Assembly: GCA_913060875.1 (NCBI GenBank)
Contig: CAJXSL010000003.1
Span: 1-64,000, forward strand
Origin: an uncultured Desulfobacteraceae bacterium
GTDB taxonomy: Bacteria; Desulfobacterota; Desulfobacteria; Desulfobacterales; UBA5852
Length of the DNA: 64,000 nucleotides
Direction of reading: 5' to 3'
Part shown: positions 22,967 to 59,650 of the stretch, piece by piece
Layout: every line of letters starts with the position of its first letter
Numbering within the stretch: position 1 is the first letter of the stretch
Position numbers and translations under genes: made by a program
Notes under the pieces: generated by a model
Seen by the model: only the letters and a program-made list of their open reading frames with translations
Told to the model about the DNA's origin: nothing
The model's database searches: none

Positions 22967-23127
22967 GGGATCACGACCTCTTTCAGTTTATGGGCCACCA
23001 AGGCTTTTTTTTCACCGGGTGATGGTTATTATGATCACTGGCTGCGTTCCGGGCCGTAAACCTCCCGGGACCGATGAGATCCATTTTACCCATCCGAATA
23101 CGCATCCGGGAAACGACTGCCACGACC

Positions 23128-43506: not shown

Positions 43507-43653
43507 CAGTATTCGTCCAAAAAGGGTAGATTTTGGTTTCGGCCAAGGCCGCAGTTCTTTGGAAACCACAGGCGTAGATAAACTACGTCGAGGATTTCCA
43601 AAGAGCGAGAACGCCGGCCGGGGCCGCAAGGTACGCTTTCTGGACGGATACTA
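43507..43653. repeat. hairpin repeat element, copy D
   Basis: 147 bp, more diverged. The ends CAGTATTCGTCCA and TGGACGGATACTA pair, and GAGCGAGAACGCCGGCCG keeps the family core. Its last three bases are the reverse complement of the TAG stop of the radical SAM gene that ends here, as in copy A. Confidence 0.75.
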
Positions 43654-44970
43654 TTTCAAGGCTGGGTTAAAGTACCCAAACTTCAATTCCGGAAATCGCC
43701 GGTGGATCTTGCGCAGCAGCGCCGACACGCCCATGGGTTCGCCATGTTCCGCCGCGGCCTTCATCGCCGCGTAATACCGCAGGGGGTCGTAGTTCAGGTT
43801 GCGCCACTGGATCAGGTGGATGGGGCGTTCGGTCAGAAAGGCCGCCAGAGCCGCGTACTCTTCCGGCGTGTCCGTAAAGCCCGGCAGGTTGAGATAGTTC
43901 AGGGCTACGTGCCCGCCGCGGGCCAGGGCCTGGTCCACACTTGCCATCACGTCGCTGAACCGGTAGCCATGGGGGCGAAAATAGCCCAAGTAGCAGGCCT
44001 CTTGCAAACTGTTGATGCTTACCCGCATGCTGTCAAGGCCGGCGTCGAAAAGAGCCGCCACCGTGTCCGGCAGGCTGGCGTTGGAGTTCAGATTGATGGT
44101 GCCCCGATCGGTTTGCCGTCGGATCCGGCGGATGGCCGGCTCGATGGATGCGGCCGCCAGCAGGGGATCGCCCTCGCAGCCCTGGCCGAAGCTGACCACG
44201 CCGTCCGGCACCCGCTCGAAATGGGCCAGGGCCACTTCGGCAATTTCTTCCGGGCTCGGCATGAAATCGATGCGGTCCTGGCTGCAGGGGACGGGCGAAT
44301 CCTTTTGCAGGGACAGGCACCCCAGGCAGCGGGCATTGCACCGGGGGGAGCTGGGCAGGGGCGCTTCGCAGCGACCGATAAAAAAATTCTTGGCCGCCGG
44401 GCAGCCATACTCCAGGGCGCATTTCTCCAGGTGCTTGCGCAGGCGGTTGCCGGCCATCGTCTTCTGGAAATGCCGGACCCCGCCCCGGACCTTTTCCAGG
44501 GGCATCAGCCGCAGATCCTGGCGCCGCTCCTTGTCCACCTGCTGCACGGCCGTGAAAAACGCGCCGTCGTGCCAGCCCACCGCCCCGTAGGAAAACAGGG
44601 GCAGGCAATTCGCGTCCGGCGTTTCTTCGTAGGCGCACAGTTGCGTGATGATGTACCCCGGCGAGTTGAAGGCCGCCACGGGAAACACCGGCTCGCCCGG
44701 GGCAAACGGATTTTCCTCCACGATCACCAGCGCATCGCTCTCCAGGTCGTACACCACAGGCCGCCGGTCCGGCAGGAACATGAACTCACTGCCGTGGGGC
44801 ATCTTCCGGGTGGTGCGGGTGGTGAGGGGCGCCAGCAGGGGGCCGTCCATGCCCACGGCGGCAAAGCCCTCCAGGTCGATGATCTCCCCCTTGGCATTGG
44901 CCACCAGGGCGGTCAGTATTTTCTCCGGTGATCGCGAAGACCGGGAATGATGGTTGCGGCGTCTGGTCAT
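43651..44970 (-). CDS. radical SAM protein
   Basis: 439 residues. The 4Fe-4S/SAM motif is CNARCLGC (about residues 212-219), followed by GEGDP-like FGQGCEGDPLLA and SMRVSINSLQEACYLGYF. The first 200 residues form an uncharacterised N-terminal domain in which three more cysteines appear shortly before the motif (CALEYGC and GRC), perhaps an auxiliary cluster. The reaction is not known. Its stop codon is formed by hairpin repeat copy D. The upstream ribosome-binding site is weak. Confidence 0.8.
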   Translation of the reverse strand: MTRRRNHHSRSSRSPEKILTALVANAKGEIIDLEGFAAVGMDGPLLAPLTTRTTRKMPHGSEFMFLPDRRPVVYDLESDALVIVEENPFAPGEPVFPVAAFNSPGYIITQLCAYEETPDANCLPLFSYGAVGWHDGAFFTAVQQVDKERRQDLRLMPLEKVRGGVRHFQKTMAGNRLRKHLEKCALEYGCPAAKNFFIGRCEAPLPSSPRCNARCLGCLSLQKDSPVPCSQDRIDFMPSPEEIAEVALAHFERVPDGVVSFGQGCEGDPLLAAASIEPAIRRIRRQTDRGTINLNSNASLPDTVAALFDAGLDSMRVSINSLQEACYLGYFRPHGYRFSDVMASVDQALARGGHVALNYLNLPGFTDTPEEYAALAAFLTERPIHLIQWRNLNYDPLRYYAAMKAAAEHGEPMGVSALLRKIHRRFPELKFGYFNPALK

Positions 44971-45336: not shown

Positions 45337-46872
45337 TCAGAGCCTCATCCGGAAAAAGGCCGCATGGTTGGAGGTAAAAAACGGGGGATCATTTTGCAGG
45401 ATGGTGCGGATGGGCGCCGGTTTCTTGAACTCCCCGGACAGGAAACGCCGCACCTGATCCCGCTGCCAGCCTTGCGGGTGCGCGAACTCCCGGTAAAGGG
45501 AGAGGTCGCCGTCGTAAAAGGGCACGGTCGGGAGGGCGGCGGCCTCCTCACTGTAGGCCGGCAGGTTGAAGACGGCCAGGTTGAGAAAATCGATGGCGTG
45601 GGCGTGGGCCAGGGTGAAGTCCAGGGTCCGGCGGGCGCGCGCCAAATCTTCGGCCGGCGTGCCGAAAAGCAGATACACATAGGTGGCGATGCCGGCGGTT
45701 TTGAGATTGTTCAGCACCGCGGACACGGTGGCGATGTCCACCCCTTTGGAGAGGGCATCCAAAACGTCCTGGTCGCCGGACTCCACCCCCAGCTTGAGCA
45801 TGACACAGCCCGCGGCCCTGAGACCGGCGGCAAAATCCGGATCGGCCAGATGCGGGGTGACCCGCACGAATCCATACCAGGGCGCGCCGGGCGGATTGTC
45901 GATCAGGTGCGCCAGCAGGCGGGGCGACAGGGCATTGTCCAAAAAATGGATGAGGGGCCGCGATGCCCCGGCCAGAACCGCCAGGTCGTCGGCAACAGCG
46001 GCGGGTGCCATGGGTCGGTAGTCACTTTTTTCGGCTTTTTCAGGGCAGAAGGCGCACTTGCGCCAGTAGCAGCCCCGGGAGGTGCTGTAGGGCAGCACCG
46101 GCCGCGGCGCCAGGTAACGCGCCCGGTCGAAGGCGGCATAATCGTAGGACGGACCGGTATCGGTTCCCGGCGGATGGCCGCCGGCCATGGTTAGCAGCGC
46201 CGCTTCCCCCGGCCCGGCAACCAGGTCGTCCACCAGGCCCTGGAACGGATTGCCCACGCCGGGAATGTGCATCCACGAAGTCACCAAACCGCCGCCGCAC
46301 ACGATGCGGGTGGCGGGAAAACGGGAGCGAATGAATCCGATCATGGCAAAGGCGCACAGGGCCTGGCTCATGAAATTGATGGAAAAACCTACGATGGCCG
46401 GCTCCCGGTCCCGGAACAACGCTGTCAATTTATTGGAAAAGGAGGGGAAGAACGGATTGGCCTCAAACGTTTCGGCCGCCCGCAGCAGGTCCCGGCTGCG
46501 CACGGGCGAAAGATCCTTCGACCCGTAATTGGCCAGAGAAATCGCGACCCCGGCGGGCTGTCCCGCCAGCTGAAGGGCCCGGTTGACATCCATGACGGCC
46601 CGCTTGTAGCGATCCGCCTGACGATACAGGTCCGGGGACCGCAGGGCCGCCAGGTGGTCTTCCCGGTGGATCAACGCCCGGTGTGACCAGGTGTCTTCCG
46701 CTTCCAGGGGGAGCTGCAGCAGCGCCAGAAGGCCATCCTGACTGGCATCGTAGACCCGGCAGTCCACGCCCCCGGCGCGCAGCACCCGGGCCAGACGGGC
46801 CACGCCGGCCGGCGGCTCGCAGGGCTTGGCCACGGGGGGATAGATGAGCAGGATTGAGGGGTTGTTCGCCAT
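45337..46872 (-). CDS. B12-binding-type radical SAM protein
   Basis: 511 residues. An N-terminal Rossmann-like B12-binding domain (about 5-225) includes ILLIYPPVAKPCEPPAGVARL and RIVCGGGLVTSW. The radical SAM motif CYWRKCAFC follows (about 268-276), then ESGDQDVLDALSKG, as in elongator/B12-SAM proteins. AAGGA precedes the ATG. Members of this class often methylate unactivated carbons or rearrange carbon skeletons; the substrate is unknown. A gap of 327 bases separates it from the next, divergent B12-type radical SAM gene. Confidence 0.85.
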   Translation of the reverse strand: MANNPSILLIYPPVAKPCEPPAGVARLARVLRAGGVDCRVYDASQDGLLALLQLPLEAEDTWSHRALIHREDHLAALRSPDLYRQADRYKRAVMDVNRALQLAGQPAGVAISLANYGSKDLSPVRSRDLLRAAETFEANPFFPSFSNKLTALFRDREPAIVGFSINFMSQALCAFAMIGFIRSRFPATRIVCGGGLVTSWMHIPGVGNPFQGLVDDLVAGPGEAALLTMAGGHPPGTDTGPSYDYAAFDRARYLAPRPVLPYSTSRGCYWRKCAFCPEKAEKSDYRPMAPAAVADDLAVLAGASRPLIHFLDNALSPRLLAHLIDNPPGAPWYGFVRVTPHLADPDFAAGLRAAGCVMLKLGVESGDQDVLDALSKGVDIATVSAVLNNLKTAGIATYVYLLFGTPAEDLARARRTLDFTLAHAHAIDFLNLAVFNLPAYSEEAAALPTVPFYDGDLSLYREFAHPQGWQRDQVRRFLSGEFKKPAPIRTILQNDPPFFTSNHAAFFRMRL

Positions 46873-47199: not shown

Positions 47200-48756
47200 A
47201 TGTTCGATGCGATCCTGATCTCTCCCCACTACGACTACACCCCAGAGGGCCAACCCATTCCCGGCCCCGACACCGGGGAGGTTCAGGACCTGTCCATGAT
47301 CATCCCCCTGGGGATCATCCATATCGCCCAGTATTTGCATGATCGCGGCCTGAACGTGCGCGTGGTTCATCTCCCGCATGAAATGCAGGCCCTGCAGCGC
47401 CTGGGGCTTTCCATCGATACGCTGAACAATCCGATCGAAACCGTATTGACCCACTATCCGGCCCGGGTGTGCGGAATCCAGTCGCATTTTTATCTTTACA
47501 CCGCCGGCGCAGCGCGCATCGCCGACATCTACCGCCATCTCTTCCCCGACAGCACGATTCTGGCGGGGGGCTACATGGCGAGTGCCTGCTGGCAGGAAAT
47601 CCTGACTGCCGTTCCCAGCATCGATGGTGTCGTCCTGGGGGAGGGTGAAAAAACCATCGAAACCATCGTCGCCAAAGCCAAAACACCAAACCATGGTTTC
47701 CTGAACACCGTTCCCGGGGTGGCCAGCCGAGACCCCGGGGGCGGGCCGGTTTGCAACCCGCCGCGTCCCGAAAACCTGCTGGCGCTCGATGAAATGCCGG
47801 TCATCAACCCGGATGCGCCCCCTTTTGGCCGGGTGGCCTGGTCCCGGCGCAGCTTCATGAATATCTCCCGGGGGCTTTGCCCGCAGACCTGCGCCTTTTG
47901 TGTAGCCAACAACCGGACCATCAACCCCAGGGCGTTTCAGACGATGACAATCGACCGGATTCTGGAGCAGCTGAACGTCTACCGGGCCCATGGCATCCAG
48001 AGCGTCTTTCTCGGGGAAAACCATTTTCTGGACACGGCCTTCATGCGGGAGCTGATCGAAGGGATCATGGGCGAAAATCTTGATATGGCCTTCGAGCTGG
48101 AAACCCATCCCGTTCTCTTTGCGGACAAAAACCTGCTCCGTAAAATGGTGGCGGCAGGCTTTTATCGCTTTACCATGGGGTGCGAAAGCGGCTCCAACGC
48201 CGTGTTGCAGCGTGTCGGACGACAGGCCCCCACCCGCCGGTTCCTGCAAAGTGTCAAAGCGGTTGCCGATGCCGGCGCACTGGCCGTAACGTCCTGGATC
48301 TGCAATCTGCCGGGCGAAACGGCGGACGAGTTCGAGGAAACCCAGGAGATGCTGCGCCAGGTGGTCGCGGCCGGGGGTTTTATCTACTGGATCGAAAACC
48401 TGCATCTGCTGCCCGGCAGCGCGCTGCATTGCCATCCGGAAAAGTGGCGGATCAAACTTCTGTTGAATGACCTGGAGGATTGGTTCCGCTGGTCCCTCGA
48501 TTCCAAGACCTACGTCGACCCCGATGACGCCCTCCGGTCGCCCCGGCGTTATTTAACCCACCTCAACCACAATACCGGTGCACGGGAGATGATGAAGCGC
48601 TTCTTCGATCATCGCCGCCTGGCGCGCCGACTGGTTCCGGATATGCAGCGCAATCTTGCGGAGCGTGCGCCCCGCCTGCCGCCGGAACTGGTCCGCGCGG
48701 AAATGCAAACACTGGACTGGTATCAGGCCCGGGGGTGGCAATTGCTGCTGTTTTAA
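47200..48756 (+). CDS. B12-binding radical SAM protein in the peptide locus
   Basis: 518 residues. The N-terminal B12-binding fold (about 1-160) contains IPLGIIHIAQYLHDRG and ILAGGYMAS. The cluster motif is CPQTCAFC (Cys227, 231, 234), followed by FLGENHFLD and GCESGSNAVLQRVGR. The DxHxxG cobalamin motif is not evident, so corrinoid binding is uncertain. It ends in a helical region (about 420-518). AAGGG lies upstream of the ATG. It is 77 bases before the C25 peptidase gene on the same strand, and I infer that both belong to the peptide-modification locus. Confidence 0.85.
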   Translation: MFDAILISPHYDYTPEGQPIPGPDTGEVQDLSMIIPLGIIHIAQYLHDRGLNVRVVHLPHEMQALQRLGLSIDTLNNPIETVLTHYPARVCGIQSHFYLYTAGAARIADIYRHLFPDSTILAGGYMASACWQEILTAVPSIDGVVLGEGEKTIETIVAKAKTPNHGFLNTVPGVASRDPGGGPVCNPPRPENLLALDEMPVINPDAPPFGRVAWSRRSFMNISRGLCPQTCAFCVANNRTINPRAFQTMTIDRILEQLNVYRAHGIQSVFLGENHFLDTAFMRELIEGIMGENLDMAFELETHPVLFADKNLLRKMVAAGFYRFTMGCESGSNAVLQRVGRQAPTRRFLQSVKAVADAGALAVTSWICNLPGETADEFEETQEMLRQVVAAGGFIYWIENLHLLPGSALHCHPEKWRIKLLLNDLEDWFRWSLDSKTYVDPDDALRSPRRYLTHLNHNTGAREMMKRFFDHRRLARRLVPDMQRNLAERAPRLPPELVRAEMQTLDWYQARGWQLLLF

Positions 48757-48833
48757 GGCGTGAGACCTCCGGCGTGTAAATTTCCGCCGGCCTATAGGCG
48801 CACCAACACCGATAGCATTAGGAGAAGCGTGGT

Positions 48834-51095
48834 ATGGCCCATATCAGATCGTTAGAGGCGCAGGGGCTTTCGGAGACGTTCGATCTTGCCCGGCACGGCA
48901 CGAAACCCATCGTCACGTTCACCTTCAAGGACAGCACCATCAGGCTGTCCTATGTGTTTCCCGGTTTCAGCTTTGCCGATCGGACCGTCGCCATGCCCCC
49001 CGAGGAAGACCCGTTCGAATCCGCCTTTCACCATGAAATCGGCATTGCCGGCGCCGGTTTTATCTCGGAAAGCGGCAAGCCGCTGCTGCCGTCCTTCGGG
49101 CGCTTTCTCCAGATTCCGGCCGGATACCGTTACACGGTTCAGGTGGAAGCGGCCGGACTTCAAAAGCATGACGACATCCACATCAAACCCGCCCAGGAAA
49201 ACGATCGGGACCAGAATGCCTGGGTCTACGAATTCAACCGGGCCACCTATGACGACGATAAATTCTATCCGGCTGAAACCGTCGCCATCAGCCCGCCGCT
49301 CTATATGGACGGCTACCGGGTCCTCGGCATTCACGTCCGGCCGATGCAGTACAACCCGGTACGCAAGCGGTTGCATGGCTACAGCAATATTGTCGTTTCG
49401 ATCGAACTGTCCGCCGAAACGGCAACCGGCCAAGACCGAACCAAGACCGGCGAAGTACCCGCATGGTGCTATCAGGACCGCGCCCATGACCTGGAGGGTT
49501 TCGGCAATTTTCTTTTCAATCCGGGGCGCACATATTTCGAAAAACGCGCCTTGCCGCTCATGCCGATGGACACACCGGCACACCGGCCTGCTATTCCGGA
49601 ATTTTTGATCATTTGCGGGGATGTGTTTGAAGGCCCGGCGCGCAGATTACAGGCCTGGAAGCAGAAATGCGGCCTGGAAACAGCGGTGGTCCCCCTATCG
49701 AAAATTATCGCGACTGGAAATGCCGACACCCCCCGGGCAGAACAGGTGGCCCGGCTCAAAGCCTATATCCGCTCGCAACGCAAGGTCCCCTTGTCACCCC
49801 TGCGATACGTTCTGCTCTTCGGCGATATCAGCGTCATTCCCACCGAAGAGCGGCAGCGTCCCGGCACTTCCGCAACCCCCCAGTTCGATACCACCGACTT
49901 TTACTACTTTACCCATCGGGATGCCCGGGGGGCGGAATGCCTGCTGCCCTGGATTGCCGGCGGCCGCATCGCCGCCGCCGAAGAAAGCGAAGGCTGGCAG
50001 GTGGTGGAGCAAATCATCCGCTATGAACAAACCCCTCCGGACGATCCGCAATACTACGATCGCATGGCCGTGGCCGCCTATTTCGAAGATCGCGATGACG
50101 GGGGCTGCCAGGACGGATGCGCCAACAAGGCCTATCTGAAAACCATGGAGACGGTTCGCGGGCACATGGCGTCAAAGGGGTTCGACGTCAGCTGCGTTTA
50201 TGTATCCAACACGCGCACACCCCGGACGTACTGTGACGGCACCCCCGTGCCGCCGCGCGTCAGGGAAAAACTGATATACAAAGCGGATGCCGCCGTTGCC
50301 ACCGGGGAGCTCATCCGTTTGATCGATGAAGGTCAGCTGGTCATTGGGCACAGGGGGCACGGCGATCGCTTCGGTTGGCTTAATCCGCCGCTGAAAACAG
50401 CCGATCTTACCCGCGTCCAGGTCCCCAGCCCGTCTGTTTTTTTCAGCATCAACTGTCGCACGGGCAGCTTTGACGGCGGCCGGGAATGCTTTGCCGAAGA
50501 GATACTGGCCTTGAATGGGGGCGCGCCAACCCTGATCGCCGCCACCGAACTGTCAGGGGCGTGGCGCAATGACAGCATGATCAAGGCCCTGTTCGACGCC
50601 GCCTGGCCGGGTATCATCCGTTGCTTCCCCGCAACGACTACCGGGTTCCCGGTAAAATACAGCCGTATCGGCGACATCATGAATTATGCCAAAGCCTATC
50701 TCCTGCTGGCCCACGGGTTCAACGCCAACACGCAGAAGCATTTGGAAATCTATCACGTCGTCGGCGACCCGACCCTGCCCGTCTGGACACATGCGCCCGA
50801 GAAACTGACGCTGCAAACGCACCTGGCCCAAAATCAGCTGAACGTCAGCATGCATCCATGTCCACCGGGGGCGGTTCTGTCGGTTTGGGATGAGGCGTCC
50901 TGCCTGTTGAAAACGGAGCCGACGGGCTCAACGCTGGCAATTCCGCTTACGGAACTGACGGGTCTGCCGAACGGCCATGGGGGAACCCTTCCAAACGGTC
51001 CCCGCCGGTTATCCATTTTTTTTACGGCGCCGGGCCACCGGCCGGCTGAAGCCAACCTGTGTTTTAAAAATCAACCACCGGAAGACCTCCTGTGA
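48834..51095 (+). CDS. C25 (gingipain) family cysteine peptidase
   Basis: 753 residues. A beta-rich N-terminal domain (about 30-215) resembles the gingipain propeptide. The caspase-like catalytic domain has His509 in GHRGHGD and Cys541 in SINCRTGSF, spaced as in gingipains (32 residues). A C-terminal Ig-like region (about 655-753) follows. Unlike most members it has no signal peptide (start MAHIRSLEAQGLSE), so it is predicted cytoplasmic. AGGAG precedes the ATG. It converges with the 74-residue peptide gene, 15 bases apart, and could be the peptide's processing protease. Confidence 0.87.
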   Translation: MAHIRSLEAQGLSETFDLARHGTKPIVTFTFKDSTIRLSYVFPGFSFADRTVAMPPEEDPFESAFHHEIGIAGAGFISESGKPLLPSFGRFLQIPAGYRYTVQVEAAGLQKHDDIHIKPAQENDRDQNAWVYEFNRATYDDDKFYPAETVAISPPLYMDGYRVLGIHVRPMQYNPVRKRLHGYSNIVVSIELSAETATGQDRTKTGEVPAWCYQDRAHDLEGFGNFLFNPGRTYFEKRALPLMPMDTPAHRPAIPEFLIICGDVFEGPARRLQAWKQKCGLETAVVPLSKIIATGNADTPRAEQVARLKAYIRSQRKVPLSPLRYVLLFGDISVIPTEERQRPGTSATPQFDTTDFYYFTHRDARGAECLLPWIAGGRIAAAEESEGWQVVEQIIRYEQTPPDDPQYYDRMAVAAYFEDRDDGGCQDGCANKAYLKTMETVRGHMASKGFDVSCVYVSNTRTPRTYCDGTPVPPRVREKLIYKADAAVATGELIRLIDEGQLVIGHRGHGDRFGWLNPPLKTADLTRVQVPSPSVFFSINCRTGSFDGGRECFAEEILALNGGAPTLIAATELSGAWRNDSMIKALFDAAWPGIIRCFPATTTGFPVKYSRIGDIMNYAKAYLLLAHGFNANTQKHLEIYHVVGDPTLPVWTHAPEKLTLQTHLAQNQLNVSMHPCPPGAVLSVWDEASCLLKTEPTGSTLAIPLTELTGLPNGHGGTLPNGPRRLSIFFTAPGHRPAEANLCFKNQPPEDLL

Positions 51096-51110
51096 CCCGG
51101 TTCGGCTGCG

Positions 51111-51335
51111 TTAGTAATCGACGTTGGGCGGGACGTTGAAGTCCCGTTTAATATTCTCCCGCTGGGCCAGGATCTTGTCGACGTCCGCCGGCGTCACATC
51201 GCTGTAATTGCGGGCGGCAAAAAAATCCGCAAGATCCTGCTGGGTGCAGTCGGGACTCGTTACGATACGGACAAATTCTCCTGATAAGTCACGATCACCA
51301 CCGACATCCGTCAAAAAATCCAGAATACCTGCCAT
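51111..51335 (-). CDS. 74-residue peptide, candidate modified-peptide precursor
   Basis: Start ATG at 51335 with AAGGAG 8 bases upstream. The first 60 residues form a probably helical leader (ILDFLTD, FVRIVTSPD, LADFFAARNY, DVDKILAQREN), reminiscent in length and pattern of Nif11-type leader peptides. It ends RDFNVPPNVDY. There is one cysteine (Cys30) and no Gly-Gly leader cleavage site at a core boundary. It is the last gene of the operon after a SPASM radical SAM gene. The precursor role is inference; a small adaptor or carrier protein is possible. The larger in-frame reading upstream lies inside the radical SAM gene and is not used. Confidence 0.65.
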   Translation of the reverse strand: MAGILDFLTDVGGDRDLSGEFVRIVTSPDCTQQDLADFFAARNYSDVTPADVDKILAQRENIKRDFNVPPNVDY

Positions 51336-51390
51336 TTTCTTCTCCTTTTCTGTGGGGGCCATGCCCCGTTGAGGATAATTGGAACACACG

Positions 51391-52482
51391 TTATTCTTGG
51401 AAACCACGTGCATCCCATGGTTGCCGCAGCCGATGGCCGCGTTGTTGATCGATGAGGGCCAGCGCCCGTTGGCAATAAAACGGCTCCCCGACCATATCCA
51501 AGGCTTCATTGGGGGGTTGCGGCATACCGTTTTCACGGCAGTGCGCAACAAATCGACAGGTCGGACAGTCAACCGTATCCGGAGCGACTGCCTTTGCGTA
51601 GCGGTTGTCGGACAGGACGGCACCGATCATGCCCGCCGTATACGTTCCAAAACGCTTCCCGGTTGAATGGGCCAGGGTCATGTCGCCATTGGCCCGAACC
51701 ATCAGTTTACCCGGACGGCAAAGCGGGTAGGAGCGTGGTATCATGGGCAGCCCCAACCGAGCCGCCGCCACATTGACCAGAGGATTGTTGAGCACATGGA
51801 TATGATAGCCGCAGATATTGAACGCCGAAACCATCCGAATGAGTCGAAGAAAAGCCTCTGGCGTCAACAACTCCCGACACAAATCGAGCGGCGCTTCCTT
51901 GACCGCGATCATCTGGATCAACGTCAACCGTTCGATAGCGCCAAATTTTGCGTATACATCCGCAACAAACGCGGGCAACAGGGGTAACAGGGTGCGGCCG
52001 ATGGCGGTAAAAAGGGACAGTCTCAGCCCCGCCTCCAGCCCCACCGCTATTCCCCGGCACGCCCCTCGGTAGGCCCCTCTGCCACGCATGCGGTCATGCA
52101 GCGTTTCCGGACCCTGCAAGCTCACCGACAGCGCCAGGCCGGGATATTGCGCCAGATGCCGTGCCACGGCGTCGGTCAGCAGCATGCCATTGGAGTTTAA
52201 AAAAACGGATTGGTACCCCAGGGTGAAAACATGGTCCAGAAGGTCCATGAGATATGGCCACAGCAGGGGCTCGCCCCCCGTCAAATGCAGCTGCCGATAG
52301 CCTTCCCGGTATCCTTCGGCACAAATTGCCCGGGCGAGATCCGGTGCCAAACAGGCTTCCTCCGCCCAACCGGCCCGGGCAAAACAGTGGGTGCACGCGC
52401 TGTTGCAGCGTGTCGTCAATTCGATACCGAGAGGCTTTGCCCTGTAGGCCGGGTCGTGTCGGGTCTCCGCAACGGCATTCAT
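51391..52482 (-). CDS. radical SAM/SPASM domain enzyme
   Basis: 363 residues. The SAM cluster is CNSACTHC (Cys26, 30, 33), followed by LTGGEPLLWP. The C-terminus has auxiliary-cluster cysteines in LCRPGK, CPTCRFVAHC and FYCQRAL, the SPASM/twitch pattern found in peptide-modifying enzymes such as PqqE, MftC and sactisynthases. Start and upstream stop overlap (TGATG), so it is coupled to the isoprenoid-synthase-like gene. The small peptide gene follows 55 bases later and is its most probable substrate. Confidence 0.88.
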   Translation of the reverse strand: MNAVAETRHDPAYRAKPLGIELTTRCNSACTHCFARAGWAEEACLAPDLARAICAEGYREGYRQLHLTGGEPLLWPYLMDLLDHVFTLGYQSVFLNSNGMLLTDAVARHLAQYPGLALSVSLQGPETLHDRMRGRGAYRGACRGIAVGLEAGLRLSLFTAIGRTLLPLLPAFVADVYAKFGAIERLTLIQMIAVKEAPLDLCRELLTPEAFLRLIRMVSAFNICGYHIHVLNNPLVNVAAARLGLPMIPRSYPLCRPGKLMVRANGDMTLAHSTGKRFGTYTAGMIGAVLSDNRYAKAVAPDTVDCPTCRFVAHCRENGMPQPPNEALDMVGEPFYCQRALALIDQQRGHRLRQPWDARGFQE

Positions 52483-53468
52483 CAGCGTATCGATTCCATT
52501 ATGAGGGGCGTGGCCAGGCTACGAATTTCTTCGGCGAGGCCTTCCAGCCGAAGACGAGCCATCTTCGATGCCGCCGAGGTCAATTCACTGCAAATTCTAT
52601 CCCGTATCATCTCCTGGATGCCGTGGTCACGGACAACCGATCGGATGTGGGTATCGTGGGCCTGGTCCTGATCCCGGGGCGCAAGATCCCACAACCCACG
52701 GCTTGCCATCGGCAAACCGAAGTAAATGGCAGAATGGCTCCCGCTGGCCATATCGCTCTCGAAATCCTGCAGATCGTCCATCAACCGCCAGGCAATACCG
52801 AAGGAAGCGTAGGCATCCAGCAAGGTGGTGACGAAATCATCGTCACGCCCCAGCTTGCTTCCCAAAAGGGATGGGGCGATGAGCCCCGTGGCCATTTGCG
52901 CACGGAAATGGCCACAGTAGCCGTCTATCGTCTCGTCCGCAGGCGTAGATCCGATGGCGGCATAATAGGCATCCAATAAATTGGCCACCCGTCTTTCGCC
53001 ATCCGCAATCCCGGCCGCCAGCCGGGCGGCGGCCAGGTTCATCCGCATCCAGGCCTGACTGCGAATGAGCACGTTCAGGTGGCTCGCCGGCAGTTGGCCA
53101 TCATTGAGGTGATCGTCGAGAGGATGCATGAAAAGGGCCATGGCATGAATTGTATTTGCGTCACGAAGATCCTGGGGTGCCGGTCTGGTAGCGTGGTTGT
53201 ACTCCCGATGAAGCCAATACAGAAGGGACCAGGATGGCGCATAGTAGTTGCGAAAATAGTCGAATCGCGGGAAACAGGGCGTCCCGAAATGTCGCATCAG
53301 GAAAACAACGGTATCCGTATGCACCGTTTCCGGCAACGACCGCAGCAGGGCCATGATTTCCGCATTCATTTCATGGCGAAAGGACTTCAAGGCCTCATTC
53401 AAGACGATTGGGCCGAAGCGAATCGAAGGGCCGGCGTCGGCCTTCGCTATGCCTGTGCTTTTTGCCAT
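52482..53468 (-). CDS. class I isoprenoid synthase-like protein
   Basis: 328 residues, all helical. Two Asp-rich motifs are visible: HPLDDHLNDG (Asp118, 119, 123) and RLMDDLQDFESD (231-235), as in trans-prenyl diphosphate synthases and terpene synthases. The first motif (DDxxxD) is not the exact DDxxD of chain-elongating enzymes. It could make or transfer a prenyl group, or be a repurposed member. It is coupled to the SPASM enzyme gene. An in-frame extension upstream (to 53702) overlaps the regulator gene and is rejected; start chosen at 53468, where family-like sequence begins. Confidence 0.72.
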   Translation of the reverse strand: MAKSTGIAKADAGPSIRFGPIVLNEALKSFRHEMNAEIMALLRSLPETVHTDTVVFLMRHFGTPCFPRFDYFRNYYAPSWSLLYWLHREYNHATRPAPQDLRDANTIHAMALFMHPLDDHLNDGQLPASHLNVLIRSQAWMRMNLAAARLAAGIADGERRVANLLDAYYAAIGSTPADETIDGYCGHFRAQMATGLIAPSLLGSKLGRDDDFVTTLLDAYASFGIAWRLMDDLQDFESDMASGSHSAIYFGLPMASRGLWDLAPRDQDQAHDTHIRSVVRDHGIQEMIRDRICSELTSAASKMARLRLEGLAEEIRSLATPLIMESIR

Positions 53469-53508
53469 TTGGTTCGGTGGATTCAGGGTGTATGGTGTTG
53501 CGTCAGCA

Positions 53509-56500
53509 TTACCCGGTCGCTGCCTGTATCGAGCGGGCGGGCGTATCGCTACCTGACCGGAGCGAACGTAACAACTGCAAATCCCACTCAAGCCCCAATT
53601 CGCGGAAAAGCGTGTCCGCTTTTTCCAAAAAGTCTTGGGAACGGATACCGTCCAACATGGTAACCGGGGTGTTTTCCTCCGACAGGCGCCGTCCGATTTC
53701 ACAATAGGTCCGCGACAATTGGAGCCGTGCCCCCAATTGTTCCCCGACCCTTATGGATTTACGCCACCACTTCAGGGCGGGCCGGGGTCTGCGTGTCAAC
53801 CAGTAGTAAGTTCCCATCAAGCGGCAGGCCTCGGTGCGGTGCTGGGCCACTTTGCGGGTCTGCCGCATCAATGCCCGGCAGGTCGTGCGGGCCTTCAGGC
53901 GCTGCTTTAACATCTCACCGTCGCCGTTGGATGCGACGGCCCCATGCAAACGATAGAGGGCCAACTCGGCTTGGCTGCGACAGAAAACAGACAGCATCCA
54001 GGGCACGGTTTCCTGCTCGCGCTGAAGGGCATCCGCTTTTGCCAGGGCTTCTTCCGCCGCCGGACGATTCCCCAGCAAGAGATAAATCTGGGCTTGGCAT
54101 CCGTAGAAATGGACCAAAGACAATCCGGAACGATTTTTCTTGGCGACATCGATCCCCGCCGCAATTTCTTCCAGGGCCTCCGGGAATCGCCGGGTTTCCA
54201 TCAGCAGGGCGGCATTCAACAATTGCTTGAACGACAGCGAAAAGTCATTTTCGTATATTTCCGAAATGGTATCCAGGCGCCCTATGCAATGTCGTACCCC
54301 GTCCAGATTGCCCTGGAAAAGCAGGGGAAAACCATGCCAGTAAAAGTGCATCGAGGCGGCCCAGAAATCGCCCATGTCAAGGCAGGCTTCGGCCAGTTGG
54401 TCATTGGGGCGGTCGATCGCCCCCCAGTTTCCCGAGAAATAATACAGCGTTGTCTGGATAAGATCGTAGGTGATCTTCTGGCGGGGATCTTCGGTAGCCA
54501 AACGGCTTTGCACCACGGACAGGATGCGCCGGCCCAAGCGGAAGGAAATACCTGTAAAAGTAAACATGGCGCTGGCACTCACGAGAACACCTGCCCCATT
54601 GGGGATCCTGGCAAAGTTGAACTTCGTAAAATGCCGGTAGAAGTAAAAAGACTCAATGAACCAGCGGCGTGGGTAGATAACGATCAGAGCCTGGCACTTC
54701 TTATAGTAGATGTCGATGACGTCGCGTTCATCCGTAGTCGGTATCTTTTTAAATTTTAGAATCGGCAGATAAAGGGCCACCAGCAAATGGATGAAACTGC
54801 TGGTGAAGCGCAGGCATGATGTCGCGATATTCCGGGGCGTCCTACCCAGGAAGACGTCAAGTGACCGATCGAAATATTGAATGGCTTCTTCATACTGCCC
54901 GCGATTATAGAAGGCCAAGGCAATGTTTTTCTCCAGAAGCGCCACCTTGGCCGCATCGGCCGACCGGCCCGATTTTTGCCGATAAAGGTTGAGGGCTTCC
55001 AGATAATAGTGCAGCGCCTCACTCGAGGCGGACGACTTGAGCGCCTCCTCGCCGGCCTTGATCAAAGCGTCTTCGGCCTTTTCCAGGTCCTCTGCGCGGC
55101 TGTAGTGGTATGCCAACATGCCGTAGAAGGCGTAGAGTTTCTCCGCAAATACCGTTTCAATCGCCTGGGCGACTTTCAAGTGCAGGGCCTTGCGCTTCTG
55201 GGGAAGAATGGCGGCATAGGCCGCCTCCTGGGTCAGGGCATGTTTGAATTGGTATTCCAGCTCATCACGCCGCTCTCTTTCATAGATAAGCTGGGTTTCT
55301 TTAAGGTAGGATAAACGCTCATCCACCCGATGCGCCGAACCGGTCACCTCCACGAGCACCCGATAGAAAAAATTGCGGCCGATGACCGCGGCGATTTTGA
55401 GCAACTCCCGCGCATCTTCTTCCAAACGATCGATACGGGCCATCAGCACATCATTGATGGTGTTGGGTATGGTCATGCGGCCGAACTTGTCCGTAATCTT
55501 GAACTGACCGTCCCGCAGGATGACCGCCCCTTCGTCGACGAAGGAACGGACGACCTCCTCGATAAAATAGGGATTGCCGCCGGCACGCTCGACGATCTGC
55601 TTCACAACCGCATGGTTGAACCCCTTCAGATCCAGCATGTCGGTGATCATGGTCGCGCTCATGCCGCCATCCAGGGGTTCCAGTTGGATATCGACCTGGT
55701 AAACCGCAAGATGTTCCTGAAGCGTATTTAAAACCCGCTGCCCTGTTTCCTCGTAGCCGGGCCGGAATAGATTGATGAAAAGAATGCGTGCTTGCTTGAC
55801 CAGGCGGAAGAGAAATTCCAGCAGATCGACGGTACTGCTGTCGGCCCAATGCAGATCGTCGACGACGACCATCAGCGGCCGCCTTTCACTCAGCCGGATC
55901 AAAAACTCCCGCAAACTTTTACGAATCAGTTTTTCCAGCGCCTCGCCTTCGATTCCCTTTAACCGATCGCTGTAGGGAACGTGCAGGCTCATGCCCATCA
56001 GGGTTGCCAGAAAAGGCAGCACCTCCCCGATCTTTCCCGGAAAGAGCGGTTGCAGGGCGGCCTCCAGTTTGGTAAGCGCCACCCGCCGGCCATCCTCATC
56101 CCCGATGCCGGCCCACTGCTTGAGGATGTCGACAACCGGGTGAAACGGCAGGTTGCGTCCCATGGATATGGCCCGGCCTTCCAATACGTTGACCTGCCGC
56201 ATTGATGTCCGCTGCCTGAGTTCGGCCATGAGCCGTGATTTGCCGATACCGGCCTCGCCGATAATATTGACAATCGCGCCTTCACCACCGGTCATTTTCA
56301 CCACGTGCCGCTCCAGCAGTTCCAGCTTGCTGTCACGGCCCACCATCTTGGAAAAAATCAAACGTTCGGAACCCAATTGCGGACGGTGAATGTCCTGATG
56401 GCCGGGCAGCACCTTGTAGACGGGAATGTTCTCACCCCAGCCCTTGACCACCTTACGCCCAAGATTTTCGAACTCAAACAACCCGCGGGTCAGTTTGAAC

Positions 56501-57144
56501 ACCTCACGGGTCACGCACGTGGTTCCCGGTTCGGCCAGCCTCTCCATGCGGGAGGCCAGGTTGACCGTATCCCCCACCGCCTTGAACTCCACCCGCAGGT
56601 CGTTGCCCAGGGTTCCCACCACCACCGGCCCGGAATGAACCCCGATCCGCATGCGAATGGTATTCGCGTCCATCTTGGTCTTGTTGAATAAAGCCATTTC
56701 CCTGTGGATGGCACGGGCTGCCCACAGGGCGCGCTGGGGCGCCTCCTCCAGGGCGATGGGGGCCCCGAACAAGGCCATGATCCCGTCCCCGGTCATTTCA
56801 TTGACGGTGCCCTCGTAATCGTTAACCTGTCGGATGAGGATCTCGTAAACCTGATCCATGAACAGATAGGCCAATTCGGCGCCGAGATGCTCCACCAGAG
56901 GTGTGAAGCCCTCCATGTCGCAAAACATGACCGTAACAAGCCGACGCTCACCCTCGATCCGGTCACGCTGGCTCAGAATCTTCTTGGTCAGCCCCTGAGG
57001 CAGGTAGCGTTGAATTTTGGCAAGGTTGTCGTCAAACACATGGAAGGAGAAATCGTCACAGGCCGTCTTTTCCAACGGATAACCGCACTGATTGCAGAAC
57101 CTGGCATTGTCCAGATTCGCAGACCGGCAGTGAGCGCATTCCAT
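53509..57144 (-). CDS. adenylate/guanylate cyclase domain-AAA ATPase-TPR protein
   Basis: 1211 residues. An N-terminal zinc ribbon (CAHC...CNQC, Cys3, 6, 17, 20) precedes a class III nucleotide cyclase domain (about 65-250; VTVMFCDMEGFT and GDGIMALFGAP with metal-binding Asp residues). A STAND-type ATPase follows (about 270-640; GEAGIGKSRL and VVVDDLHWAD), then TPR-like helices to about residue 1190. Such proteins act as large signalling hubs. It is the first gene of the operon, 40 bases before the isoprenoid-synthase-like gene, so it probably governs or responds to the peptide system. TAAGG lies upstream of the ATG. Confidence 0.87.
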   Translation of the reverse strand: MECAHCRSANLDNARFCNQCGYPLEKTACDDFSFHVFDDNLAKIQRYLPQGLTKKILSQRDRIEGERRLVTVMFCDMEGFTPLVEHLGAELAYLFMDQVYEILIRQVNDYEGTVNEMTGDGIMALFGAPIALEEAPQRALWAARAIHREMALFNKTKMDANTIRMRIGVHSGPVVVGTLGNDLRVEFKAVGDTVNLASRMERLAEPGTTCVTREVFKLTRGLFEFENLGRKVVKGWGENIPVYKVLPGHQDIHRPQLGSERLIFSKMVGRDSKLELLERHVVKMTGGEGAIVNIIGEAGIGKSRLMAELRQRTSMRQVNVLEGRAISMGRNLPFHPVVDILKQWAGIGDEDGRRVALTKLEAALQPLFPGKIGEVLPFLATLMGMSLHVPYSDRLKGIEGEALEKLIRKSLREFLIRLSERRPLMVVVDDLHWADSSTVDLLEFLFRLVKQARILFINLFRPGYEETGQRVLNTLQEHLAVYQVDIQLEPLDGGMSATMITDMLDLKGFNHAVVKQIVERAGGNPYFIEEVVRSFVDEGAVILRDGQFKITDKFGRMTIPNTINDVLMARIDRLEEDARELLKIAAVIGRNFFYRVLVEVTGSAHRVDERLSYLKETQLIYERERRDELEYQFKHALTQEAAYAAILPQKRKALHLKVAQAIETVFAEKLYAFYGMLAYHYSRAEDLEKAEDALIKAGEEALKSSASSEALHYYLEALNLYRQKSGRSADAAKVALLEKNIALAFYNRGQYEEAIQYFDRSLDVFLGRTPRNIATSCLRFTSSFIHLLVALYLPILKFKKIPTTDERDVIDIYYKKCQALIVIYPRRWFIESFYFYRHFTKFNFARIPNGAGVLVSASAMFTFTGISFRLGRRILSVVQSRLATEDPRQKITYDLIQTTLYYFSGNWGAIDRPNDQLAEACLDMGDFWAASMHFYWHGFPLLFQGNLDGVRHCIGRLDTISEIYENDFSLSFKQLLNAALLMETRRFPEALEEIAAGIDVAKKNRSGLSLVHFYGCQAQIYLLLGNRPAAEEALAKADALQREQETVPWMLSVFCRSQAELALYRLHGAVASNGDGEMLKQRLKARTTCRALMRQTRKVAQHRTEACRLMGTYYWLTRRPRPALKWWRKSIRVGEQLGARLQLSRTYCEIGRRLSEENTPVTMLDGIRSQDFLEKADTLFRELGLEWDLQLLRSLRSGSDTPARSIQAATG

Positions 57145-57689: not shown

Positions 57690-58499
57690 CTAGAGCGCCT
57701 TCTTAAGCGCCTCAAGGACCTGGGCCGTAGCGGATCCTTTCGGCTCCAGGTCATTTTCACGCTGGAAGGCCTGGATGGCAGCGCGCGTCTTGCTGCCGTA
57801 GAGGCCGTCGATGGGGCCGGGCTCGTAACCCAGATCCGTCAGGATCTGCTGAATCTCGCGCACCAGTTTTTGCCGGGCCAGGGCGTTACGGCGCGCCTGG
57901 GCGGCACCCCGGTTGACCTCCCGTTTGTAGGCCTGGATGCCGGAAATGGACAGGAACCGTTCTTCCACCCGCACCCCTTGGGCCTTTGCCAGTCGAAACC
58001 ATCGCAGGGCCTCCAGGTCGCTCTGTTCAACTCCGGTGCCGCTCGCATACATCAGGCCGAGCATATGCATCGAAGCCCCATGTTCTGCACGGGCCGCTGT
58101 TTCGAAATACCCTACGGCCAAACCTGCATCGGAGGAAATGTAGGCCATTCCCATCAAATAGTTGGCCGGCGGATAGCCGCGGTCCGCCGATTGCTCCATC
58201 CAATAGAGGTAGCGCTTCAGATCACGTTTGCCCCCCTCTCCGGCCAGGCACATGTTCGCCAGCATGAACTGGCCGTAGGCGCCACCCGCCTCGGCCGCCG
58301 TTCGGTATTCCCTCCTTGCCGCGGCAAAATTTTTGACCTGGTAAAAATGGTCGCCGCGGGTCTCGGCCGAACTGGCTTTAAAATAATTGGTGGTTTTGGA
58401 CATGCCCGACTGGACCGACTCCATAAACCCGGCGCAACCTGTCAGTACCAACAGAAGCAGCAGTAAAACCAGCGATAGGTGTAAGCGATGATTCGGCAT
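57690..58499 (-). CDS. Sel1-repeat lipoprotein with peptidoglycan-binding domain
   Basis: 269 residues from the ATG at 58499 (GGAG eight bases upstream). A lipoprotein signal ends LVLTGCAG, with the lipidated Cys near residue 22. Sel1-like repeats occupy about 45-175 (AEAGGAYGQFMLANMCLAGEG shortened; EHGASMHMLGLMYASGTG). The C-terminal domain (about 205-268; ILTDLGYEPGPIDGLYGSKT) is a PG_binding_1 fold. It would sit in the envelope, bound to the cell wall. It follows the Hint-domain lipoprotein gene on the same strand by 53 bases, so the two probably form an operon. Confidence 0.85.
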   Translation of the reverse strand: MPNHRLHLSLVLLLLLLVLTGCAGFMESVQSGMSKTTNYFKASSAETRGDHFYQVKNFAAARREYRTAAEAGGAYGQFMLANMCLAGEGGKRDLKRYLYWMEQSADRGYPPANYLMGMAYISSDAGLAVGYFETAARAEHGASMHMLGLMYASGTGVEQSDLEALRWFRLAKAQGVRVEERFLSISGIQAYKREVNRGAAQARRNALARQKLVREIQQILTDLGYEPGPIDGLYGSKTRAAIQAFQRENDLEPKGSATAQVLEALKKAL

Positions 58500-58552
58500 G
58501 ATCGACACTCCAATGGTCAAATACGATGGTTGGGGTTTAGATAGACGATGGA

Positions 58553-59407
58553 TTATTTTGCGCCACCGCCTCCGCCGCTTGAATTGTGGACCAGATAGCG
58601 ATCGCCATCGGAGGTTACCACATAGAAATTATGGGTGTCGTCAACCTGCATGTTGTGCAAAATCCGGTCTTCTTGACGATAGTCGATGCCGGTTATGCTC
58701 ATCATGCGCCCATCCACGTAGACCGCATCACCCACTTTCAGATTGCGTACCCGCTCCCATCCGTCCGGCGTCAGCAACCGCTCGCCCCCCGTCGTACTGA
58801 ATACACCGTTGATCGTGTACAGATGGTTGGCTTCCACCGTATAAAGGGAGAGTACAGGCCGGCTCACCACCTGATCATAGCCGATATCATAGGTCAGCAC
58901 CCTGTCGCCCGGCACAACCTGCTCGAACCGTTTGAAAGATCCATCGTCCATCTGCACCAGCGTATCGGGGGGAAAGCAGCCCCGGGACTCGTTGAGAATG
59001 GCCTGCTTCTCCTTTTCCACCCGGGCCAGCTCCCTTTCGAGCCGCTGGACTTCTTTTTCCGCCGCCGCGGCCTGTCCATAAGCCTGGTCGGCCAGATCTT
59101 CATAAGTGGGTTTGCCATCCCCTTTGATCCATCCCCTGGATTTATGGTTCTGCACGTCGTTGATGACAGCAATCTGGCGCTGCTGGTTCTCGAATTCTTT
59201 CATGTCCTCGATTTTTTGCTTGAGTCGATGAATGTCCGCATCCACTTCATCGACCGTCCTCAGGGCCGGTGTCGGTGGCGGCGGGTCATCCGGCGGTGGT
59301 GAAGAAACCTCGTAAGCATCGTAAAGGCAACCTGTCAGAAACAAAGCAAGGATGAAAGCAAGTGACAGTGGGAAATGCATCCGGTGGAGCAGGCGCTGTT
59401 TATTCAT
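58553..59407 (-). CDS. lipoprotein with C-terminal Hint (intein-like) domain
   Basis: 284 residues from the ATG at 59407 (GAGGAAG upstream). The lipobox is LFLTGC (Cys27). A Pro-rich spacer is followed by a coiled coil (about 50-140) and a Hint domain starting at Cys144 (GCFPPDTLVQMDDGS). The domain has DTHNFYVV near 257 and ends at VHNSS (His274, Asn275), leaving only nine residues ending GGGGGAK. The usual TxxH block B histidine is not seen (FSTTGGERLLTPDGW), so self-processing may be weakened or altered. Hint domains in polymorphic toxins release a C-terminal toxin, but here no toxin follows. Confidence 0.8.
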   Translation of the reverse strand: MNKQRLLHRMHFPLSLAFILALFLTGCLYDAYEVSSPPPDDPPPPTPALRTVDEVDADIHRLKQKIEDMKEFENQQRQIAVINDVQNHKSRGWIKGDGKPTYEDLADQAYGQAAAAEKEVQRLERELARVEKEKQAILNESRGCFPPDTLVQMDDGSFKRFEQVVPGDRVLTYDIGYDQVVSRPVLSLYTVEANHLYTINGVFSTTGGERLLTPDGWERVRNLKVGDAVYVDGRMMSITGIDYRQEDRILHNMQVDDTHNFYVVTSDGDRYLVHNSSGGGGGAK

Positions 59408-59650
59408 CGTCTTCCTCGTTGCAATGGCCGTCGTTGAATTGAAAGCGGCCAGCATAGCGGCGCCGCTCGTTTGCATACCGACATCGATACAGGTAGGTTA
59501 ACGCAGCCGCATCTATTATAGTAATCACATAAGGGAGTCAAAATAAAAAAGATTGGCTTGGCAACCGTTTGCTTTCGGTCTGATGTTTTGTATTATTGGT
59601 CGGTTTGATGAAAGCTTGAGAAGAAAATCGCCTGTCACGGAGACATTCCC

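Follow-up and report, generated by a model that had tools for sequence, protein, structure and literature searches.

The 64,000-nt stretch of DNA analysed here (the window) comes from an uncultured Desulfobacteraceae bacterium (UBA5852; assembly GCA_913060875.1, contig CAJXSL010000003.1, positions 1 to 64,000) and contains a minus-strand operon that appears to direct the synthesis of a ribosomally made, modified and prenylated lipopeptide, probably an intercellular or autocrine signal; we put the probability of this reading at about one half. Four genes, all with open frames, follow each other in the operon: (i) CYC (53509-57144), the product of which combines a class III nucleotide cyclase domain with a zinc ribbon, AAA_16 and TPR (Pfam Guanylate_cyc, AAA_16 and TPR); (ii) ISO (52482-53468), whose product has a class I trans-isoprenyl-diphosphate-synthase (trans-IDS) fold and is a putative peptide prenyltransferase, as judged from its model and motifs; (iii) the gene for a radical SAM enzyme whose C-terminal cluster is of a reduced SPASM type (51391-52482; PF04055, 63.5 bits); and (iv) the gene for a precursor peptide of 74 residues with a helical leader, a variable tail and an FNVPPNVDY end (51111-51335), recognised as an open reading frame (ORF) with relatives. 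This order, the TGATG overlap that couples ISO to the radical SAM gene, and the 74-residue peptide were already reported in a preliminary description of the window, and all stand. The start of ISO is the ATG at 53468, the 406-residue ORF listed for it over-extending into CYC, and a GGAG-type ribosome site precedes the peptide gene.

Occurrence of the cassette across genomes

A single-sequence search with ISO over 242 genomes of the order detected the gene in five; it was also found in 4 of 307 genomes of the phylum, two of the four being fragments with an internal stop (the window's own genome is counted in both sets), and in 2 of 238 genomes of Bacteroidota, i.e., in Telluribacter and as one weak match. 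A profile search of named genome contigs yielded 13 loci, the hosts of which are desulfobacterial/deltaproteobacterial metagenome-assembled genomes (MAGs), Olavius symbionts, spirochaete MAGs and Telluribacter humicola. The grouping of the genes is far beyond chance, because other genomes contain it too, for example L013 (identities to the window of 57% for CYC, 49% for ISO, 56% for the radical SAM enzyme and 77% for the peptide) and L017 (56%, 45%, 52% and 55%, respectively). CYC lies upstream of ISO in all eight desulfobacterial-type loci other than the window (9/9 with the window), and the two genes adjoin in seven of the eight (8/9 with the window), the L016 copy being a contig-edge fragment and a flavoprotein gene standing between them in L017. 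The radical SAM gene follows in 6/8 and a peptide relative in 7/8 of these loci (7/9 and 8/9 with the window). An overlap of 1 or 4 bases joins ISO to the radical SAM gene in six of the eight loci checked, the window counted.

In Spirochaetota, ISO was detected in 20 of 392 genomes, in 18 of them clearly, and four of the 18 had already appeared in the 13-locus profile search. Eleven further spirochaete loci were fetched, and each of them combines ISO with both the peptide and the radical SAM gene, although in L064 a contig end cuts the latter. With three additional loci (L103, L105 and L111) included, the total comes to 28 ISO loci, of which 23 have the radical SAM gene and 24 have the peptide within the stretch fetched (no peptide is present in the L103 and L111 stretches). 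Left out of this count were the weak matches G282 and G432, the fragments G1060 and G977, and the weak match L129 of genome G868, whose stretch contains no peptide or radical SAM match. Across the 392 spirochaete genomes (radical SAM at E up to 1e-70, peptide at E up to 1e-5), ISO occurs in 18, the radical SAM enzyme in 21 and the peptide in 20; ISO and the radical SAM enzyme co-occur in 18, ISO and the peptide in 17, the radical SAM enzyme and the peptide in 19, and all three in 17, compared to a chance expectation of about one genome per gene pair. It should be noted that the co-occurrence p-values are too favourable, because the ISO, radical SAM and peptide profiles include loci from the scanned set; the near-absence of cassette genes elsewhere is independent of profile composition. 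The preliminary description had proposed that radical SAM enzyme, isoprenoid-fold enzyme and peptide form one RiPP-like locus (RiPP, ribosomally synthesized and post-translationally modified peptide), and the genes are indeed mostly together, not apart, across genomes. We consider it highly probable that this is a real RiPP-type cassette, conserved across different phyla.

The precursor peptide and its two candidate enzymes

The peptide alignment comprises 36 sequences including that of the window, to which the other members are 77 to 15% identical; a peptide-like ORF of L110 was excluded since its frame continues past NGY. Common to the 36 peptides are an N-terminal D-F motif and a helical body, followed by a tail that varies in length and sequence. 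The last residue is exactly Tyr in 33 of the 36, compared to a Tyr frequency of 2.3% elsewhere in these peptides, C-terminal Trp occurs in none, and the window peptide has no Trp at all. The three other ends are YAKL (L016), FLFLTR (the second copy in L039) and YLFLTH (L107), of which the latter two perhaps represent a second peptide subfamily; L039:10668-10889 (+) and L107:7553-7771 (-) are related orphans, and neither stretch contains a match to ISO or to the radical SAM enzyme. An enzyme that modifies the tail would need just such an arrangement, i.e., a variable tail that closes with a single conserved residue resembling an acceptor. With a single conserved residue in the tail, the cross-linked product envisaged in the preliminary description is not indicated. 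Nor is the peptide a stand-alone protein, which would have counted against that description: its relatives, found in 10 of 11 genomes searched, largely track the cassette and keep the C-terminal Tyr.

The AlphaFold model of the window peptide (predicted local distance difference test score, pLDDT, 77.8) consists of helices, with residues 69-74 below 50, and its comparison to PDB gave a single match at E 10. Among NCBIfam and Pfam matches at E up to 0.1, resemblance to Nif11 leaders is weak (TIGR03798 in 5/36, best E 0.017; PF07862 in 2/36, best E 0.049), the window peptide matches neither family, and the NHLP leader family matches none of the 36.

ISO has no significant match in Pfam or NCBIfam (best Pfam E 0.29), and its fold was assigned from an AlphaFold model (pLDDT 89.5, predicted template modelling score 0.88). 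Foldseek and VIA-align matched this model to octaprenyl, geranylgeranyl and similar diphosphate synthases. The 50 VIA matches listed have Z of 18.2-21.5 and are mostly prenyl diphosphate synthases, the top match reaching Z 21.5 over 286 residues, and Ord1 (9v4g), a Trp farnesyltransferase, ranks 39th in Foldseek (E 7.9e-4). The modelled structure allows us to assign ISO confidently to the trans-IDS class of folds, so that the earlier label of an isoprenoid-synthase-like protein is supported by structure, although not by family profiles. In the alignment of 13 ISO sequences (the window and 12 loci, aligned over their length), 33 columns are invariant, and the Asp-rich motifs DDHLxD and DDxxDxxxD are present in 13/13. 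The dipeptide Trp-Arg directly before the second Asp motif (WRxxDDxxDxxxD) is also invariant in all 13; Gln is absent there as a conserved residue, the sole Gln being the first residue of the stretch in L022 alone. ISO is unlikely to be a housekeeping enzyme, because the genome has two ordinary polyprenyl synthases, both on other contigs. None of 17 pattern-matching stretches of viral contigs encodes an ISO relative.

The radical SAM motif CX3CX2C is present in all 19 aligned enzymes of this family, and four C-terminal Cys (CX2CX5C and one more) are invariant in the same 19, with the usual X3C place of the SPASM motif taken by Gly in 18 and by Ala in one. The seven-cysteine SPASM motif corresponds to two auxiliary clusters. 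Here that motif is incomplete, so that of the SPASM enzyme described earlier the radical SAM part holds and the full SPASM part does not. None of the 25 NCBIfam matches listed for the enzyme reaches its cut-off, and the mycofactocin maturase family TIGR03962 scores 61.9 bits against a cut-off of 265. Two kinds of PADLOC defence model gave matches: the viperin models hit the core of the radical SAM enzyme (best E 3e-13), and the Pycsar cyclase models hit the cyclase domain of CYC (best E 1e-20). We read both as shared domains because no other PADLOC family matched any of the six cassette proteins.

Neighbouring genes and incomplete loci

In spirochaetes, a sensor gene comes next after the peptide gene, at a distance of 3-97 bases in 10 of 15 cases and of -23 to 811 in the other five. 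Of 17 such post-peptide genes scanned, 16 match 7TMR-DISM_7TM, 14 of them above the cut-off, and histidine-kinase domains were found in 15 and a SpoIIE domain in 11. The 16 include the L073 sensor, which is split into two frames; the L023 gene, of which the contig end leaves only a start of 207 residues, has no match; and the output of the L100 sensor is a SpoIIE phosphatase without kinase domains. In the window, there is no histidine kinase gene beside the precursor, and the regulator is CYC, the cyclase-AAA-TPR protein, a putative cytoplasmic regulator or receptor that matches TIGR03903 (TOMM kinase/cyclase regulator) with 324.5 bits over residues 63-719, below the cut-off of 705.75.

Two plus-strand genes converge on the operon, as in the preliminary description. 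The product of one is a C25 (gingipain-family) peptidase (48834-51095; PF01364, 144.5 bits), a candidate leader peptidase, with a stop 15 bases from that of the peptide gene. It contains the His and Cys motifs GHRGHG and NC, which we take to be catalytic, and no hydrophobic segment above the threshold used. C25 genes are also found in L013 and L017, where they are convergent and truncated by the ends of the contigs, and L014 retains a remnant; L015 has an S8 subtilase instead, so that the C25 protease of the original combination holds at some loci only. The other gene encodes a B12-binding radical SAM protein (47200-48756; Pfam), whose cassette membership is uncertain: it was met again beside C25 only in L014, in interrupted form, and its inclusion in the combination is not borne out. 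In L015, L018, L020, L021, L065 and L100, further genes for radical SAM or B12-binding proteins are close to the cassette, and these do not all belong to a single family. Two further radical SAM genes flank the cassette in the window (43651-44970 and 45337-46872, minus strand). They are unlikely to be members, because their L014 counterparts (83% and 72% identical) are intact where the cassette is broken.

Geranylgeranyl-reductase-like flavoproteins are encoded in 11 stretches (L015, L016, L017, L019, L022, L040, L067, L071, L101, L104 and L109), in two pieces in L019 and as a fragment in L104, and the corresponding profile has no match in the window. Among NCBIfam families, the geranylgeranyl-reductase family was best for all nine flavoproteins compared, above the cut-off in two (L067 and L071). 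On the 3.6-kb contig of L022, such a flavoprotein and ISO are fused in one open frame (L022:1402-3603, plus strand). Isopentenyl-diphosphate isomerase was found above its cut-off in two spirochaete loci (L020 and L070). A 351-residue ORF at L040:9976-11028 (+), beside the flavoprotein and the peptide of this spirochaete, has no Pfam match at E up to 0.001.

Several loci are incomplete. In L014, a deletion removed the radical SAM gene and the peptide and truncated both ISO and C25: ISO is homologous to residue 257 and is then joined to C25 residue 151. The B12 radical SAM gene is interrupted there, CYC and the flanking genes are intact, and no peptide was found in the genome. L016 combines ISO, the YAKL-ending peptide and a flavoprotein without a radical SAM gene, and in the L024 genome ISO is separated from the genes for the peptide, the radical SAM enzyme and the flavoprotein, which are on a contig of their own (L040). 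The Telluribacter locus (L025) contains overlapping genes for ISO and a Tyr-ending peptide, and no radical SAM enzyme of the cassette family was found in the genome at E up to 1e-20; after these genes, L025:11210-13383 (+) encodes a 276-residue protein without a Pfam match and an FAD_binding_4 oxidase, a region that perhaps replaces the radical SAM step. Conversely, no ISO was found in several genomes with other parts of the cassette: G628 (peptide, radical SAM gene and sensor), G326 (a 3-kb contig with the radical SAM gene by itself), G462 (a sensor and a flavoprotein with two peptides and, where the contig ends, the radical SAM gene), G334 (a peptide with a flavoprotein) and G453 (a weaker peptide match). 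The weak peptide matches G337 and G500 are outside these exceptions.

Elsewhere in the window, two minus-strand genes that are kept near CYC in L014 encode a Sel1/peptidoglycan-binding protein (57690-58520) and a Hint-domain protein with a lipoprotein-like start (58553-59476). A 1,805-residue UvrA-like protein (23074-28491, plus strand) has two UvrA interaction-domain stretches and is apparently a double-length or fused UvrA, and a 1,255-residue ORF (34704-38471, minus strand) has no Pfam match at E up to 1e-4. Rfam gave no match in the window at gathering scores.

Proposed pathway, alternatives and known systems

In the pathway that we propose, ISO, with Mg2+ on its two Asp motifs, would ionise an allylic diphosphate and transfer the prenyl group to the C-terminal Tyr of the peptide, as PalQ does to a C-terminal Trp. 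The odds that ISO prenylates the terminal Tyr are slightly better than even. The radical SAM enzyme might act on this Tyr too, or on its backbone, one option being an oxidative decarboxylation like that carried out by the mycofactocin enzyme MftC. The geranylgeranyl-reductase-like flavoprotein, where present, would saturate the chain, and the C25 (or S8) peptidase would remove the leader, giving a short lipopeptide of perhaps 10-20 residues. In spirochaetes, the 7TM-DISM proteins would sense this lipopeptide, whereas in the window's group it may act on the cyclase-AAA-TPR protein and change the cyclic nucleotide level. For the product, a role as a signal seems likely in the spirochaetes but less so in the group of the window, with even odds overall. 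The most specific version, i.e., a Gram-negative RiPP pheromone with a prenylated C-terminal Tyr, remodelling of the same residue by the radical SAM enzyme, a saturated tail and a 7TM-DISM or cyclase-STAND reader, is tentative, being possible rather than probable.

Several observations weigh against a prenylated peptide signal. The best fold matches of ISO are ordinary prenyl diphosphate synthases, and searches of PDB sequences with the ISO sequence and profiles gave no significant match to any solved structure. According to excerpts of a 2026 review, all characterised trans-IDS-like peptide prenyltransferases act on Trp (PMC13290415), and in the MppE/MppC system, again as excerpted, no geranylated product was obtained when Trp was changed to Tyr (PMC12715784). 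The peptide of one ISO locus (L016) ends in YAKL instead of Tyr, and the link between Tyr and ISO is not exclusive, because the C-terminal Tyr persists with a single enzyme in G628 (radical SAM only) and in Telluribacter (ISO only). No membrane sensor was recognised beside the peptide in the window's group, and no exporter was recognised at the loci, exporters not having been searched for systematically. The optimism of the co-occurrence p-values, due to profiles built in part from the same genomes, belongs here as well.

Three alternatives were weighed against these data. The same peptide chemistry could yield a membrane-active or antagonistic lipopeptide, with the regulators controlling only its production; the neighbouring cyclase-STAND and histidine-kinase regulators fit production control equally well, CYC resembles, below the cut-off, a family named for regulators of TOMM RiPP systems, and the L100 sensor has a phosphatase output with no kinase domains. 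The close spacing of peptide and sensor genes in most spirochaete cases is, conversely, that of pheromone-receptor pairs, and no immunity gene or exporter was recognised (neither was searched for systematically), so that we consider an antagonistic product unlikely, albeit the most credible of the three. It is somewhat less probable still that the peptide is a scaffold for a redox cofactor or small molecule, its Tyr being processed in a mycofactocin-like manner and ISO and the flavoprotein prenylating the released head group. Conservation of the last tail residue alone, the weak similarity of the radical SAM partner to the mycofactocin maturase and the adjoining peptidase gene would all suit such a product; however, penultimate Val occurs in 0/36 peptides, the score against the mycofactocin maturase is below its cut-off, and hypervariable tails with paired membrane sensors suit a signal better than a cofactor.

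The least probable alternative is that the substrate of ISO is a small molecule, ISO being a synthase of terpenes or prenyl diphosphates, while the radical SAM enzyme and the peptide form a separate RiPP system that shares only its regulation. The canonical synthases among the fold matches agree with it, as do G628, with its peptide, radical SAM gene and sensor and no ISO found, and G245, in which ISO is on another contig than the peptide and radical SAM gene. The frequent overlap of the ISO and radical SAM genes, the overlap of ISO with the peptide gene in Telluribacter, where the cassette-family radical SAM enzyme was not found, and the presence of two polyprenyl synthases elsewhere in the window's genome argue for an ISO that belongs to the peptide pathway. 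If the prenylated-signal reading is correct, then prenylated-peptide signalling reaches Gram-negative bacteria (desulfobacteria, spirochaetes and one Bacteroidota strain), i.e., a ComX-like mode outside Firmicutes; ISO would be a new enzyme for tyrosine-selective lipidation of peptide tails, its acceptor specificity being new among trans-IDS-like enzymes; and 7TMR-DISM sensors would gain a ligand class and, with it, ligands open to direct testing.

Among known systems, mycofactocin (MftA/MftC) involves a precursor with a C-terminal Tyr and a radical SAM partner. The cassette shares these two features and differs by the lack of a C-terminal Val-Tyr, the score below the NCBIfam cut-off and the presence of an isoprenoid-fold enzyme. 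It resembles Nif11-leader peptides with radical SAM maturases in its short helical leader and radical SAM neighbour, but the TIGR03798 matches are weak (5/36) and the conserved core residue is the terminal Tyr. Leader-dependent prenylation of a precursor in which a disordered part comes after a structured leader would be common to the cassette and the MppE/MppC system, as far as excerpts of the description of the latter show. In contrast to the cassette, the system with its Nif11-like leader makes a lanthipeptide, the acceptor of the enzyme MppC is Trp82, Tyr is not accepted and there is no C-terminal Tyr acceptor (PMC12715784).

The nearest known kind is that of the ComQ/PalQ-type (trans-IDS-like) peptide prenyltransferase systems, so that a class can be named where the preliminary description could name none. 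We set ISO apart from PalQ and ComQ by their published descriptions, as excerpted in the papers cited. In PalPXQ of Paenibacillus alvei, a histidine kinase is encoded together with a trans-IDS-like prenyltransferase and a precursor of the leader type, the C-terminal Trp of which is conserved (PMC10853753); in vitro, PalQ prenylates this Trp, and precursors extended past it are not accepted (PMC10853753, PMC13290415). The cassette likewise has a leader-type precursor with one conserved C-terminal aromatic residue, a trans-IDS-like enzyme with both Asp motifs and, in the spirochaete loci, a histidine kinase gene. In contrast to PalPXQ, the acceptor would be Tyr, not Trp, the second Asp motif is preceded by an invariant Trp-Arg and by no Gln, there is a radical SAM enzyme and often a geranylgeranyl-reductase-like flavoprotein, the hosts are Gram-negative, and the leader is not recognised as NHLP. 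The characterised trans-IDS-like peptide prenyltransferases share, in the excerpted review, a Gln before the second Asp motif and recognition of Trp (PMC13290415). ISO is thus perhaps PalQ-like, yet fails these two group features, as it has Trp-Arg in place of Gln and its peptides end in Tyr. ComQXPA of Bacillus is similar in having an isoprenoid-fold enzyme beside a small variable precursor and, compared to the spirochaete loci, a polytopic sensor kinase; in the excerpted account, however, the prenylated Trp of ComX is internal and ComQ has no second Asp motif (PMC10853753).

A 2014 census, as excerpted, reported no ComQXPA outside Firmicutes (PMC4008528), and a 2014 survey of RiPPs in anaerobes listed potential producers among Spirochaetes, with no words beginning in prenyl- or isopren- in the main text consulted (PMC4289311). 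Among the open-access matches listed, mostly titles and beginnings of abstracts, no ribosomal-peptide system with a prenyltransferase acting on a C-terminal Tyr was reported. The RiPP reading of the preliminary description was broadly right, and it overlooked the conserved C-terminal Tyr, the closest relatives and the signalling side. In our best reading, the cassette works like ComQX and PalQX and is a member of neither, because the acceptor is Tyr, ISO lacks the Gln found in Trp-specific enzymes and the cassette includes a radical SAM partner.

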